From: Desulfobacterales bacterium
Lineage (GTDB): Bacteria; Desulfobacterota; UBA8473
Assembly: GCA_016209225.1 (NCBI GenBank)
Contig: JACQWO010000069.1
Location: forward strand, 101,324-165,323
Direction of reading: 5' to 3'
Length of the DNA: 64,000 nt
Of this stretch, positions 1,235 to 59,603 are shown piece by piece. Position 1 is the first letter of the stretch, and every line of letters starts with the position of its first letter. Below the pieces are notes generated by a model that was not told the origin of the DNA, searched no databases, and worked only from the letters and a program-made list of their open reading frames with translations. Made by a program: the position numbers and the translations under genes.

Positions 1235-1570
1235 TTACTTAGGGACGAAGTTACTTAGGATGTCCCCAAAGGTTCCCTTATTGAAATCCGCAACCGGGGG
1301 TTCGCGTTTGCGCTGCATTTTAAAATATAGGGATACAGCGTGCGCCGCCTGATTTTGCTGGAATGGGATCTGTCTTTTTTCCCGCAACTTGTCAATAAAC
1401 AAACGCACCCGATCAGCCCGGGCTTTGGGTACAGGATATTTGCCGCAGAAATCCAGAAAATATCTGAGCCACTTTTTATAGTCCGCACGCTGTATCGGCG
1501 CAACGGCTCGTTTTTCGAGAGTTGCATCAAACCTCGTCAGAACGGGAGCCGGAACAGGCAGCATCGGCAT
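1235..1570 (-). pseudogene. Integron-type tyrosine recombinase (IntI-like), N-terminal fragment only
   Basis: VPAPVLTRFDATLEKRAVAPIQRADYKKWLRYFLDFCGKYPVPKARADRVRLFIDKLREKRQIPFQQNQAAHAVSLYF matches the N-terminal SAM-like region of integron integrases; no catalytic domain follows. Confidence 0.8.
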
Positions 1571-1717
1571 TGAACAGTTAACCTCCTACTAATATATAAT
1601 TGATATTGAACAACTTAAATAATGTTGTAATATCATATAGATTTGTCAACAAAATTTAAATTTGATATTGACAGGCTCAAAACTTCCTGATATTGACAGG
1701 AAACTATTCAATATATT

Positions 1718-1746
1718 GTTCCCCCCTCGCTCCGCTCGGGGGGAAT
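1718..1746 (+). repeat. 29-bp hairpin repeat GTTCCCCCCTCGCTCCGCTCGGGGGGAAT
   Basis: Exact reverse complement present at 57407-57435. Confidence 0.9.
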
Positions 1747-1849
1747 GCGGCAGTTGAGCAGCGAACTCCTGATTTCCCCTTCGCTCCGCTGCGGGGAGAA
1801 CCAGGAGTTCGAGACAGATGCCCTTCGGGCACTGCTCAACTGCCGCATT
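1744..1849. repeat. 106-bp long inverted repeat (cruciform-capable)
   Basis: 18-nt perfect arms AATGCGGCAGTTGAGCAG / CTGCTCAACTGCCGCATT plus inner arms GAACTCCTG / CAGGAGTTC. Confidence 0.85.
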
Positions 1850-2326: not shown

Positions 2327-2384
2327 ACATAACAACAAAATGCAGCGGATACTTAAAAACGTCCCGCTGATTACGGCGTTATCA
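2327..2384 (+). other. attC-like recombination site
   Basis: ACATAAC...AAT-g-CAGCGG(loop)CCGCTGATT...GGCGTTATCA; stem with one extrahelical base, imperfect core sites, directly after an ORF stop. Confidence 0.65.
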
Positions 2385-2441
2385 TATTAATTGACTAACA
2401 AGGTCTCTTTTGTTATCTTTTATAAATTGGAGGCTACTATT

Positions 2442-2690
2442 ATGAAAGAAAAACAATTGCTCGAAAGAATCGTACTGAACCCAAAAGTTATGGTAGGTAA
2501 GCCTGTCATACGGGGAACTCGTTTAACTGTCGATTTCATTCTTAATCTCTTGGCGCACGGGGCTACAGAGAATGAGATTTTGAATGAATACAAAGGCCTC
2601 ACCATTGAAGACATACATGCTTGCTTCCTTTTCGCCACAAAGTCCCTCAAGAACACTGAATTTATGCCGCTGATGGCGGAGTATTCCTAA
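2442..2690 (+). CDS. DUF433 domain protein (putative antitoxin)
   Basis: RIVLNPKVMVGKPVIRGTRLTVDFILNLLAHGATENEILNEYKGLTIEDIHAC; SD GGAGG; overlaps the next gene by 1 nt. Confidence 0.88.
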   Translation: MKEKQLLERIVLNPKVMVGKPVIRGTRLTVDFILNLLAHGATENEILNEYKGLTIEDIHACFLFATKSLKNTEFMPLMAEYS

Positions 2691-3040
2691 TGCGATTCCT
2701 CGTGGATGAATGTACAGGCCCAGCTGTTGCAGAGTGGCTGCGCAATCAAAAGCACGAAGTATTTTCGGTTTTTGAAGAGGCAAGAGGAATGGATGATGAT
2801 GGCATAATCTTGAAGGCACTTGAAGAAAATTGGATTTTGATCACAAACGATAAGGATTTCGGAGAAAAAGTATATCGAGATGGCCGACTTCACAGGGGTG
2901 TCATTTTACTTCGCCTTGAAGATGAACGTTCTCCATCAAAAATCCAAGTACTATCCCGCCTTCTAAGGACATACCCAGATCGACTGTCAAACACATTTGT
3001 CGTAGTCACGGAAAAGCAGATTCGTTTTGCCCGAAGGTAG
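2690..3040 (+). CDS. DUF5615 PIN-like family protein (putative toxin)
   Basis: MRFLVDECTGPAVAEWLRNQKHEVFSV...ILITNDKDFGEKVY; coupled to upstream DUF433 ORF. Confidence 0.88.
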   Translation: MRFLVDECTGPAVAEWLRNQKHEVFSVFEEARGMDDDGIILKALEENWILITNDKDFGEKVYRDGRLHRGVILLRLEDERSPSKIQVLSRLLRTYPDRLSNTFVVVTEKQIRFARR

Positions 3041-3053
3041 ATTAAAAGGAGAA

Positions 3054-3180
3054 GTCCCAACCAGTCAGTGCACCAGACCGGAAAAGCCGTGCCGTTTTTT
3101 ACATTAACGGCATTTTGTGTAAAACATCCAATTTTTCATCTTCCTTATAGCTTTTCCGGCTGGTGACTTTCACGTTCTGC
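3054..3180 (+). other. attC-like recombination site (long type)
   Basis: CACCAG-a-CCGGAAAAGC (3071-3087) pairs with GCTTTTCCGGCTGGTG (3150-3165) with one extrahelical A; outer TCCCAAC and GTTCTGC in core positions; directly downstream of the TA pair. Confidence 0.75.
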
Positions 3181-3240
3181 CGCTAGATAGTTGCTTGCAA
3201 TAGTCAGGCTGAAAAATGATCTGTACACAGGAGATTTGAG

Positions 3241-3492
3241 ATGAAACAACTTACGAGAATAACATTTGATCCAAATGTAATTGGAGGTAAGCCCTGCATT
3301 CGGGGTATGCGCGTGACTATAGGCTTGATTGTGGGGCTCATAGCTTCTGGCCACACCAAAGAAGAAATTCTGAAATTATATCCCTACCTGGAATCCCAAG
3401 ATATTAATGAAGCCCTCTCCTATGCTGCTTGGCGGGTCGAAGAAATCGAAGTTCCTCTTGTCCTGGCGTCGGCGCATGAAGGTATTAATTGA
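3241..3492 (+). CDS. DUF433 domain protein (second putative antitoxin)
   Basis: RITFDPNVIGGKPCIRGMRVTIGLIVGLIASGHTKEEILKLYPYLESQDINEAL; SD GGAG upstream. Confidence 0.88.
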   Translation: MKQLTRITFDPNVIGGKPCIRGMRVTIGLIVGLIASGHTKEEILKLYPYLESQDINEALSYAAWRVEEIEVPLVLASAHEGIN

Positions 3493-3545
3493 TATGAATC
3501 TTTCGCCAGTGTGGGAGAGTGTTCTAGAAGATGCACACGAAATTC
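3476..3545 (+). pseudogene. DUF5615 PIN-like toxin fragment
   Basis: MKVLIDMNLSPVWESVLEDAHEI resembles the family N-terminus, overlaps the antitoxin stop, then continues into unrelated sequence. Confidence 0.6.
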
Positions 3546-3624
3546 TGGGGACAGAATACTTGTGCGGCCGGGCAAGTATTATATTACCATGTCCCTTAGT
3601 ATGTGGGGGTAGCGCAACGGCAGT

Positions 3625-4314
3625 ATGGTCAAAGGATCTGATATCGATAACGTGGACTTTACAAGAAAACCGTCTTTAAGAAACGCCCGATTTACTGATT
3701 TTTTGATCCGGAAGAATGCTTTTGACGAAGGTGGTTTTAAAGGATGGGTCTTTTGTCCTGGGATGCTGTTTAACTCAACAGACAAATGGTGGGGAGATCA
3801 GGGGAAGCGTGATAAGCCCCATGAGGGATTGGATTTATGCCTCTACAAGGATCGGGAGGACAAGATTCTTCGTCTTGGTGAAAAGGCAAATATCCCCGTA
3901 ATATATGACGGCATAGTTGTTAGGATTGTCGATGATTTTCTTGGAAAATCGGTGATCATAGAACATTTATTTTCCGACTGTGATAACAATAGGTTCTATA
4001 CGATTTATGGTCATACAATTCCAGAAGACAATCTTCACGTTGGCAAAATAGTCAAGGAGGGGGATGTCATTGCAACCTTGGCTGACTCGAACAGCTTAAA
4101 AACAAACATCTTTCCCCATTTACACATCTCACTCGGGTGGACATCCAAAGCAATCTCATATGACAGATTGGATTGGGAAAACATTGGCGCTCCAAATACG
4201 TTGACGTTGTTGGATCCCCTGCAGGTTATTGATTGGCATTACCTTATATTGGCACGCGAAAATTGTAAAAAGTTGGGACTTCCGGTACGCCCCTTAAATA
4301 ATAAGATTCTCTGA
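3625..4314 (+). CDS. M23/LytM-like peptidase-fold protein
   Basis: HEGLDLCLYKD...GIVVRIVDD...IYGHT...GDVIATLADSNSLKTNIFPHLHISLGW resembles M23 HxGxD/HxH motifs. Confidence 0.6.
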   Translation: MVKGSDIDNVDFTRKPSLRNARFTDFLIRKNAFDEGGFKGWVFCPGMLFNSTDKWWGDQGKRDKPHEGLDLCLYKDREDKILRLGEKANIPVIYDGIVVRIVDDFLGKSVIIEHLFSDCDNNRFYTIYGHTIPEDNLHVGKIVKEGDVIATLADSNSLKTNIFPHLHISLGWTSKAISYDRLDWENIGAPNTLTLLDPLQVIDWHYLILARENCKKLGLPVRPLNNKIL

Positions 4315-56398: not shown

Positions 56399-56521
56399 TC
56401 CCCCCAACCTGCCCCAAAATAACCCATGGACTCAGCCCTCCAATTAAGTAAAAAAAAAAAAAAAAAATACGCACTTTGTCATTTCGACTGGAAGGAGAAA
56501 TCTTATAACTCATTGATTTTT

Positions 56522-56564
56522 ACAACAGCGGGCTTAAGCCCGCTGTTGTAAGCCCGCTGTTGTC
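56522..56564. repeat. Palindrome ACAACAGCGGGCTTAAGCCCGCTGTTGT plus extra half-arm
   Basis: 28-bp perfect palindrome followed by AAGCCCGCTGTTGTC. Confidence 0.85.
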
Positions 56565-56798
56565 ACATAGCCAATGAAAACTTCTTTTTCCTGTTACTGT
56601 CACCCTAAAGATTACACCCGATGCTTTCATTCTGGGGCTTGAGGGAAATAAAAAGATAAAAAAAATCCATATATCTAAGAGAGTTATCAGTTATGCTCCT
56701 CTGCCGGTAATATTTGGCATATATCTTGAATTGATAAAAAGTCTTAAGCCCCCTTTTTGGTGGCAAAGAAACGGCATATTGGGTCAGAAAAGGTAATA

Positions 56799-57017
56799 AT
56801 GAAGGAAAAGAAAGTAAAAGACATCCTTCTTCCCTTTAAGGAAGGCATACCGCTTTGTCCCTCAGTGACTCTAAACGATAAGATTGTGCAGGCCATTGAG
56901 TTGATGGTTAATAACGACCTCAAGTGTATTGCTGTAATAGAGAATCAACGGCCAGTGGGAATGGTTTGCCTTAAAGATGCTTTGCAGGAGATGGGTCTAC
57001 AGGTTACAGACAGGTAA
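56799..57017 (+). CDS. Short CBS-domain-like protein
   Basis: KVKDILLPFKEGIPLCPSVTLNDKIVQAIELMVNNDLKCIAVIENQRPVGMVCLKDAL. Confidence 0.65.
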   Translation: MKEKKVKDILLPFKEGIPLCPSVTLNDKIVQAIELMVNNDLKCIAVIENQRPVGMVCLKDALQEMGLQVTDR

Positions 57018-57119
57018 ATTACTATTCATATTTACTATTCATATTTGACCTTTAGGTAATAACCTTAAGCACTCTGTTATCTGCCGGTGCGGGTAAAAAA
57101 TCAAATGAGTTTTTCTCTA

Positions 57120-57406: not shown

Positions 57407-57435
57407 ATTCCCCCCGAGCGGAGCGAGGGGGGAAC
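57407..57435 (-). repeat. 29-bp hairpin repeat, exact reverse complement of 1718-1746
   Basis: ATTCCCCCCGAGCGGAGCGAGGGGGGAAC. Confidence 0.9.
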
Positions 57436-57488
57436 GATCAAGCTAAGCTGCGGCGTGAAACGCCGTCAGCTTCAGCGATTGGTTAGGC
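57432..57488 (-). other. attC-like recombination site
   Basis: Minus strand GCCTAACCAATCGCTGAAGCTG-A-CGGCGTTTCACGCCGCAGCTTAGCTTGATCGTT: RYYYAAC present, stem with one extrahelical A; distal core degenerate. Confidence 0.8.
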
Positions 57489-57500
57489 TCAGATATAATA

Positions 57501-57773
57501 TCATCTGAAAAGTTGAGAATGACTTCCTGTACGATAAAGAACAAGTTCATCATCCTCTATTGCATAAATCAGGATCCAATCAGGTTCGATATGACAATCA
57601 CGCTTATTCTCATATTTGCCGCTGAGTGGATGGTCATGGTATTCAGGAGGTAATTTCCGTCCTTCCGCAAGTTCTTCAACAATACTCAGTAACTTCTCAA
57701 TATCTTTCCCACTTCGTAAAAGTCGTTTAATATCTTGTTTGAACTGGGTTGTTCTCCGAATAATCAACTTCAA
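57501..57773 (-). CDS. YafQ/RelE-family toxin
   Basis: RTTQFKQDIKRLLRSGKDIEKLLSIVEELAEGRKLPPEYHDHPLSGKYENKRDCHIEPDWILIYAIEDDELVLYRTGSHSQLF. Confidence 0.93.
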   Translation of the reverse strand: MKLIIRRTTQFKQDIKRLLRSGKDIEKLLSIVEELAEGRKLPPEYHDHPLSGKYENKRDCHIEPDWILIYAIEDDELVLYRTGSHSQLFR

Positions 57774-58033
57774 GGTAACAAATCCTTTCGTAATTCTTCG
57801 ATGGAATGAAATACAGGCATAGCGGATTTATCTTCGGCAAATGCTTTCAAAGTCGTTTCATTCGGGATTTCAAGCTTGTCAAAACTACGTCGAATATCTT
57901 CATCTTTCAGAATATATCGTGCGACGGTCAGCCGGTCTTTTTTCGGCAATGCACGAGATACCCGATAAAACGCCTCTCCCGTACTGATTGTTACAGATTG
58001 AGATTTTTCCGATTGTTTTTTTGATGTCAACAT
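57770..58033 (-). CDS. RelB/DinJ-type antitoxin
   Basis: 4-nt overlap with YafQ-like toxin; KDRLTVARYILKDEDIRRSFDKLEIPNETTLKAFAEDKSAMPVFHSIEELRKDL. Confidence 0.8.
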   Translation of the reverse strand: MLTSKKQSEKSQSVTISTGEAFYRVSRALPKKDRLTVARYILKDEDIRRSFDKLEIPNETTLKAFAEDKSAMPVFHSIEELRKDLLP

Positions 58034-58058
58034 CTTTAAATTTCCCCCCTTTTTTTAA

Positions 58059-58114
58059 GCCTAACACAAAGTTCACCGGGAGCGTAAGCGATCCGGTGGA
58101 ACGACTGGTTAAGC
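58059..58114 (-). other. attC recombination site (near-canonical)
   Basis: Minus strand GCTTAACCAGTCGTTC-C-ACCGGATCGCTTACGCTCCCGGTGAACTTTGTGTTAGGC: RYYYAAC and GTTRRRY both perfect, one extrahelical base. Confidence 0.9.
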
Positions 58115-59074
58115 CTCGTCTCTATCATGAAAGTGATACCAAGATACCAAATGCCGTTTCATGTCCTTAGATGGATCAATAATACACAGTAGTCTTTTCA
58201 ATTGTTTCTTGCTGTCTGAAAGCCACCAATTGATGATATTGCTCTTGTCTGTCTGGTCAGGTCTATTTATCCAGAACACGTTCGACAATTCTTTCGGGTC
58301 ATTTCGCTTAAGTTCCAGTTGTTCAGAAATAGCGCCCGCGATTAGGTCCGAAACTGACAGAAAATCCTCGATCTGCATGGTGCCGTTGTCACAGCGAGAC
58401 GTTCCACAGCGGCAGTGACCAAGAGAAAAACTAAGATATAGGCTGCTAATCCAACCGAAGAGCTGAGTAAGGTCAATCACGCGCTGATCGTTTGCCGCTA
58501 TGCTGTCCTCATCCGTAAACCATAATACATCTTGTCCTGGTCTACATAGCCCAGATAGAAGGAAACTGAGGAAATGGGTGGCTACAAATGCTTTTTCGAG
58601 AACACTTTTCTTCCACTTTGTGAATGAGGCAAAGTCTGGGTTTGTAAGATCCAATGGAGGGTTCGGAAAGATAGATTCAGAGCGCTTATTCATGGCCACT
58701 GAGAAAGAGAGTCCCTCAAGGGTATCGGCTGCCTGTAACAACGGTACTAATGCCTTTTGTCTTTGAATGTCGTTTAGTCGTTTAAAGGACATCCGCCGGG
58801 AATCCGAGAAAAAAGTCTCTCTAATTGCTATTCGTTTCCGTTCCCAGCTTTGCCATGCATCTAACGAAACGAGTAAGAAGGAATACACTATGTAGGGAGA
58901 ACGCGACGATTCACCGCTGTAGTCAGACCCAAGCAAAAGAGTATGAGCGCGGCGAAGATTCGGTAGACTATCCGCATTAGTGTTCTGTAACTGCAAGAGG
59001 TTTCGATTGAGAATATCAAAGATGGTTCTATCGGGAACCGGCACCGGATTCCAATATGCATGTGAAGTATTCAT
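58109..59074 (-). CDS. Hypothetical 321-aa protein (integron cassette ORF)
   Basis: Stop codon lies inside attC; CRCGTSRCDNG cysteine cluster; no family recognised. Confidence 0.7.
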   Translation of the reverse strand: MNTSHAYWNPVPVPDRTIFDILNRNLLQLQNTNADSLPNLRRAHTLLLGSDYSGESSRSPYIVYSFLLVSLDAWQSWERKRIAIRETFFSDSRRMSFKRLNDIQRQKALVPLLQAADTLEGLSFSVAMNKRSESIFPNPPLDLTNPDFASFTKWKKSVLEKAFVATHFLSFLLSGLCRPGQDVLWFTDEDSIAANDQRVIDLTQLFGWISSLYLSFSLGHCRCGTSRCDNGTMQIEDFLSVSDLIAGAISEQLELKRNDPKELSNVFWINRPDQTDKSNIINWWLSDSKKQLKRLLCIIDPSKDMKRHLVSWYHFHDRDEA

Positions 59075-59088
59075 ATTTTATCTTTTAG

Positions 59089-59095
59089 GCTTAAC
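59089..59095 (-). other. Core-type GTTAAGC (GTTRRRY) 15 bp upstream of the cassette ORF start
   Basis: Perfect consensus core without flanking palindrome; possible attI-side junction or relic. Confidence 0.45.
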
Positions 59096-59264
59096 AATTA
59101 ATATACGTAATACTTAATTACCCTGCTGACAAACATCACTATTGAAAAGATATGTGTAATTTTATAGTTATTGATGATCAAAGTCAAAGGTTATTCTTGA
59201 AAATATCCCGATAATATGCTTATTATCATAAAACACATAATACGTATAATAGCGTTGCTTTGAC

Positions 59265-59355
59265 CGGAAGCGGGGATACTTGGGGACGGACGCACTTGGG
59301 GACGTTGGGACGCACTTGTACTTGTGTACTTGGGGATTGTACTTGGGGTTCTATT
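59265..59355. repeat. Iterated (TACTT)GGGGAC word region
   Basis: ATACTTGGGGACGGACGCACTTGGGGACGTTGGGACGCACTTGTACTTGTGTACTTGGGGATTGTACTTGGGG. Confidence 0.75.
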
Positions 59356-59603
59356 TGTGATATTTATAGCCATAACGTTGTTCAGCCCTCTCGATTGCCT
59401 TCGTAACACCCGATGTATTCACGCCTGCCCCGCTGGGGCGGTAGGCAAGCAATGCACAGGCAGATGTTCGCTTCAAAGGGAATTTTTTCACTTTTCAGGA
59501 TGAACTCAATTAATATTGACTTTATTATGAACAAACTATATATACAATGAAACCCCATTGGATTAATTGGCATATTAAAAACGAATGGAGGAAGGGGAGA
59601 TTT

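Follow-up and report, generated by a model that had tools for sequence, protein, structure and literature searches.

Integrons are bacterial gene-capture platforms, and several kinds of incomplete array and of associated mobile element have been described that resemble parts of the locus studied here. Integrase-less cassette clusters (CALIN) are recognized by IntegronFinder 2.0 from a threshold of two attC sites (PMC9024848). Cassettes devoid of genes (ORF-less) have been reported from Vibrio superintegrons (PMC11014356) and oral metagenomes (PMC6557892), whereas other mobile elements that are not cassettes are found at the same recombination sites: IS1111-attC insertion sequences target attC sites (PMC11187229 and references therein), and group II introns have been found associated with them (PMC7923331).

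In this work, we analysed a 64-kb stretch of DNA (the window), in which the region 57.1-59.3 kb shares with CALIN the presence of two attC sites, cassette genes all in one orientation and the lack of intI, but differs from them in that an attI is retained and in that a structured, gene-less element of about 130 bp adjoins its final attC. Since the attI is still there, the array is recognizable as an integron that has lost its intI, and we consider it highly probable that a degraded chromosomal integron, together with a structured element carried as a passenger, accounts for the locus as a whole. As a locus, an integron relic is a known kind of thing and belongs to a common class; the new part, as far as we searched, is the structured gene-less element, a remnant of which ends this array and a full copy of which starts the other cluster of the window (1.2-3.2 kb). 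With gene-less cassettes the element shares its small size, its lack of coding sequence, its place at cassette positions of arrays and a 3' end resembling attC, but here one conserved, covarying structure of ~130 bases recurs in many copies and several phyla, its body is complementary to its own attC arm, and it also occupies attI and non-attC sites. It resembles the IS1111-attC elements as a mobile element at attC sites, yet it is protein-less, about 130 bp long and also found at the attI crossover base. The attC-associated group II introns are likewise non-cassette mobile elements at attC, but the element displays no intron, reverse transcriptase or Rfam match at gathering score.

To recognize attC sites, a covariance model (R1) was trained on 20 attC sites, all located outside the 64-kb window, with pairing over 3 bp, an extrahelical base, 6 bp, a second extrahelical base and 4 bp, plus AAC/GTT; the training alignment predicts 13 pairs, 11 of which show compensatory change. 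As the training sites are attC copies adjoining the structured element, R1 was also run on genomes outside the training set. A scan of both strands of the window with filters off gave three strong matches, two of them being the sites proposed by the sequence-only reading (57433-57488, minus strand, 56.9 bits, E=2.3e-12; and 58063-58114, minus strand, E=4.1e-8) and the third belonging to the other cluster; a fourth match (1795-1849, E=0.011) falls on the 3' end of the structured repeat. Both proposed attC sites are real, having been recovered at their coordinates by a covariance search with a model trained without them. A plain core-and-hairpin search was dropped in favour of the covariance model because its chance matches were too many: the bare RYYYAAC...GTTRRRY hairpin search yields 0-3 matches in Markov shuffles of the window, and the RYYYAAC core alone is below chance expectation; the significance of the sites therefore rests on the full attC model and on context.

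The context agrees with what had been read from the letters. The attC sites directly follow minus-strand ORFs, the toxin stop lying 12 bases before attC 57432-57488 and the stop of the 321-aa ORF (TAA, 58109-58111) falling within the R'' box of 58059-58114, and the GTTAAGC core ahead of the latter ORF is located at 59089-59095. On the minus strand, the 5' arm of each site carries the extrahelical base (C in GTTC[C]ACCGG for 58059-58114, G in GCT[G]AAGCTG for 57432-57488), so that their orientation equals that of the genes. The left attC departs from GTTRRRY and has the right core GTTCCCC, since a multi-copy repeat, namely the structured element, begins directly after the G of that core. The coordinates of all features are collected in the table.

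Table. Features of the cassette array at 57.1-59.3 kb and of the other cluster of the window.
Feature	Position	Strand	Remarks
attI and presumptive promoter region, type B, intI missing	59089-59275	-	crossover G|TT at 59095/59094
Cassette 1, 321-aa protein of unknown function	58109-59074	-	no Pfam, PADLOC or NCBIfam match
attC of cassette 1	58059-58114	-	R'' GCTTAAC and R' GTTAGGC, both canonical; R1 E=4.1e-8; strict core/hairpin scan
Cassette 2 gene 1, presumptive antitoxin, 87 aa	57770-58033	-	by position beside toxin only
Cassette 2 gene 2, YafQ-family toxin, 90 aa	57501-57773	-	PF15738 E=1.3e-33
attC of cassette 2	57432-57488	-	R'' GCCTAAC, right core hybrid GTTCCCC; R1 E=2.3e-12
First hairpin of element (remnant)	57407-57434	-	100% over 28 bases to full copy
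YgiT-type zinc-finger protein, 92 aa	57120-57398	-	TIGR03831 E=6.9e-10; probable third cassette
Truncated IntI of other cluster	1235-1570	-	weak match to TIGR02249, PF13495
attI of other cluster, type A	1571-1718	+	85-89% identical attI in C27
Complete element copy	1719-1849	+	first after the attI of the other cluster; R2 143.9 bits
attC of other cluster	2327-2380	+	R1 E=2.3e-9

Read on the minus strand from 59.3 kb, the array comprises a 187-bp leader, the core G|TTAAGCC, the 321-aa gene and its attC. Next come two small genes with the second attC behind them, then a hairpin of 28 bases and, last, the gene for a YgiT-type zinc-finger protein. The leader recurs at several places in this genome and elsewhere in the genus, including copies of 96% identity on contigs C53 and C91, and in most copies reaching the core end the match ceases at or just after G|TT, giving way to differing sequence. 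In the same-genus genome G004 (contig C1), a homologue of the leader is the immediate neighbour of a divergent IntI of 442 aa, which scores 417 bits against TIGR02249 (cut-off 265), and beside the C53 copy the first codons of intI (ILPDFQKYLV) are retained before the sequence decays; the leader is therefore an attI. The possibility that the repeat at 59.1-59.27 kb is a dispersed miniature transposon was rejected, since G004:C1 carries the same repeat beside intI. A TIGR02249 search of the own genome found no intI near C64:158-161 kb, nor any match in contigs C53, C91, C37 and C68. With two attC sites and no adjacent integron-integrase gene, the array deserves its earlier description as an integrase-less, CALIN-like cassette cluster.

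Type-B leader copies occur on C53, C91, C37 and C68 (L113, L253, L244 and L250), some of them heading cassette arrays, and these copies represent either repeated intI loss or attI dispersal. The array behind the type-B attI of C53 (L113, 2825-3625) encodes, besides a DhiT-like toxin pair, a 266-aa protein that has no family match and whose C-terminal half appears TIR-like by eye. An intI fragment at the end of C62 was considered as the missing intI of the array and rejected, as it is of the C19/C13 type.

The array holds two to three captured genes, for which the roles given here are predictions from sequence. The 321-aa protein, already listed as unknown, matched no family in Pfam, PADLOC or NCBIfam. 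Its relatives, with 25-42% identity, are mostly hypothetical proteins from rhizobial and Burkholderia-type plasmids, and one is present in another genome of the phylum (G134, 29%). It is absent from the same-genus relatives; the viral contigs searched gave no confirmed relative, no convincing relative was found among solved structures, and the single-sequence fold prediction was unusable (mean pLDDT 35). Regarding the small-gene pair, formerly described as RelBE-like toxin-antitoxin, the toxin is borne out as a YafQ-family member, while the antitoxin is proposed by position and has no family match. The pair thus shares with YafQ modules a toxin of this family and an adjacent small gene, but differs from them in that the partner lacks a match to an antitoxin family. 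The YgiT-type gene, not found at this locus in same-genus relatives and not followed by an attC, is probably a third, truncated cassette whose attC is missing.

Synteny was compared in four same-genus genomes. The bamD-alaS block is conserved rightwards from about 59423 in all four (91-94% for the bamD query), and three of them preserve the acs-CBS block as far as 57044. G004 is the most complete of these relatives; it has the two blocks on separate contigs, next to other genes. Most of the intervening 2.4 kb was not found in the same-genus relatives, with the exception of the attI leader; the cassette block is missing at this place in all four. The array is therefore placed at a rearrangement junction, as seen in the draft assembly of 95 contigs. 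The end of the CBS-domain gene is present twice in the genome with 96% identity (window 56791-57044 and L097 4078-4290), the second copy lying on contig C62 between a regulator gene, which follows CBS in relatives, and a broken intI. Both ends of the break are thus flanked by integron pieces: the array at one CBS copy and, at the other, a broken intI that belongs to a different type. Short dispersed repeats, occurring in great number across the genus, are located at 56520-56570 and 59430-59510, one of them being palindromic (CAGCGGGCTTAAGCCCGCTG). Three same-genus relatives share stretches of 100% identity with the MAGs Deltaproteobacteria CG_4_8_14_3_um_filter_43_13, Deltaproteobacteria SURF_34 and X2_MetaBAT.32.

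Turning to the structured element, we collected 70 copies from this genus and public MAGs (including L108, L111, L113 and L157-L236), which span Desulfobacterota-, Nitrospirota-, Nitrospinota- and Armatimonadota-type MAGs and measure 118-135 bases in nearly all cases. Some copies, in MAGs bearing the labels Thermodesulfovibrionales, Desulfobacteraceae and Armatimonadetes, share 94-96% identity with the complete copy of the window, and the remnant at 57407-57434 is detected by model R2 with 29.5 bits (E=1.3e-4). The base before the element is G in 53 and A in 13 of the 70 copies, TT follows it in 68, and the majority of copies end A|TT, not G|TT. An attC lies immediately upstream in 39 of the 69 copies with enough flank (two further script matches, judged to be attI, were left out of this count), against 36 of 669 control GTTR positions; in held-out genomes, a model-detected attC ends at the element start in 6 of 16 full copies. 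At least five copies are located at an attI beside intI or an intI fragment. Homologous attI and attC without the element exist, one such empty site being the attI of C27. In most copies the upstream boundary is thus the G|TT of an attC or attI, as for a gene-less cassette, with a minority of copies at other sites. Within the phylum, the element was found in 17 of 395 genomes, and a near-complete IntI is present in 9 of the 17 carriers versus 133 of the 378 other genomes, a weak association among incomplete genomes.

The fold of the element consists of a terminal hairpin, a long outer stem and two inner hairpins. Its stems covary, with 58 two-sided changed cells versus 16.4 in shuffles, and 96.9% of cells are paired versus 41-49% when slid; covariation also extends to the pair formed by the final base of the element and the base that follows the first hairpin (T-A 13, C-G 5). 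Among the 16 held-out copies, 8 have an R1 match over their final ~55 bases, so that their own 3' end scores as an attC, and the window copy gives only the weak fourth match mentioned above. The element may hence be read as a putative gene-less cassette with start TTCTCC/TTCCCC, body, attC and end (A/G)|TT, its attC having the R'' GGAGAAC and the L arms GTT[C]GAG[A]CAG / CTGCTCAAC. In 65 of 67 copies, R'' is complementary to the element's own start at five or more of the six positions, which a circular cassette would need; the constancy of R'' is partly due to selection, as the collection pattern itself included GGGAGAAC. Furthermore, in 60 of 67 copies the body contains a stretch perfectly complementary to the attC arm, and the attC fold and the whole-element fold therefore compete. 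A search of Rfam gave no match at gathering score, the best sub-threshold match being GA-cis (E=0.0055, 23.9 bits versus 34.7 needed), and no prior description of the element was found in the literature searched, which hardly extended to subscription journals.

Five near-identical copies with identical high scores were found in a single MAG, Desulfobacteraceae CSMAG_2745 (L176, L198, L215, L224 and L235), at CTTG|TT or CTTA|TT sites with no attC ahead, as if recently multiplied outside integrons; IntI may have used these as secondary sites, or another enzyme may have been at work.

As to how the element moves, it would most likely spread as a passenger cassette, with IntI recombining it into the G|TT of attI, of attC and occasionally of other sites. 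Given the weak association with IntI and the CSMAG_2745 copies without attC, movement by IntI is our leading reading rather than a demonstrated one, with IntI as the candidate enzyme. We lean towards a family of selfish gene-less cassettes, composed of a self-complementary hairpin with a 3' attC, which would use IntI in trans to multiply into attC, attI and secondary sites, would cross phyla and would live on integrons as a non-autonomous parasite. The alternative of a miniature element that owes its movement to a transposase, either an attC-targeting one (for instance IS1111-like) or a single-strand one, seems to us unlikely, albeit deserving of attention: members of IS1111 that target attC are known (PMC11187229), copies away from attC exist in CSMAG_2745, and most copies end in A|TT. 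Nevertheless, the element is positioned at the IntI crossover base of attI and not at attC alone, its 3' end scores as attC in half of the held-out copies, and its R'' fits its own start as in a circular cassette; nor was an autonomous parent element bearing such ends noticed. It is also too short to contain a transposase gene, and so is not itself an insertion sequence. If the element does move as a cassette, integrons would have their own minimal parasite, the features that an attC needs for mobility would become testable, and odd 'imperfect' attC cores such as the one observed here would be explained as hybrid junctions; its movement could also help to explain cassette-type DNA at sites outside arrays.

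Similar weighing applies to the array. In the order of events that we infer for a degraded integron, the cassettes would have entered singly, IntI recombining a folded attC with the G|TT of attI; with intI lost, the array keeps its attI and probably its promoter (59275-59089), ends on the left at the genome rearrangement, and would be mobile only via another IntI of the cell acting in trans. The sequence-only reading had instead suggested either insertion at secondary sites or splitting of one integron. Insertion of the cassettes at a secondary (attG-like) chromosomal site that was never part of a platform is improbable: it would agree with the lack of a nearby intI and with the missing block in relatives, but the first cassette is joined at the G|TT of an attI, and the sequence to the right of that first core is the repeated leader which lies beside intI in G004 and beside intI codons in C53. 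The retention of attI with loss of the integrase thus argues for a degraded integron. That the sites are chance hairpins or an assembly artefact is barely credible; simple core-and-hairpin searches do give chance matches and the genome is a draft, but the E values of 2e-12 and 4e-8 were obtained from a model without these sites, an attI lies alongside, and the block is interior to a 165-kb contig. Because its attI survived, the lost platform of this degraded integron can be traced to a related genome, making the relic more useful than most.

A split of one integron by rearrangement would account for two clusters within one 64-kb window that both contain sequence of the same structured element. 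We regard it as very improbable, since each cluster has its own attI and these are unrelated in sequence (local score of 18 versus a shuffled mean of 19.4), and the clusters are therefore not halves of one integron. Their integrase lineages also differ, as the IntI remnant of the other cluster resembles, at attI, the C19/C13/C62 lineage and not the G004:C1 type; the structured element, moreover, occurs genome-wide. Closeness, which had been taken as suggesting splitting or insertion at secondary sites, carries little weight, for the genome contains 44 attC matches over about 20 contigs, making two arrays within 54 kb unremarkable. At C27, an attI with 85% identity over 158 bp to that of the other cluster has an ordinary cassette at the same G|TT. 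Finally, two pairs of small adjacent genes, DUF433/DUF5615-type by eye, are found at 2391-3679 of the window.
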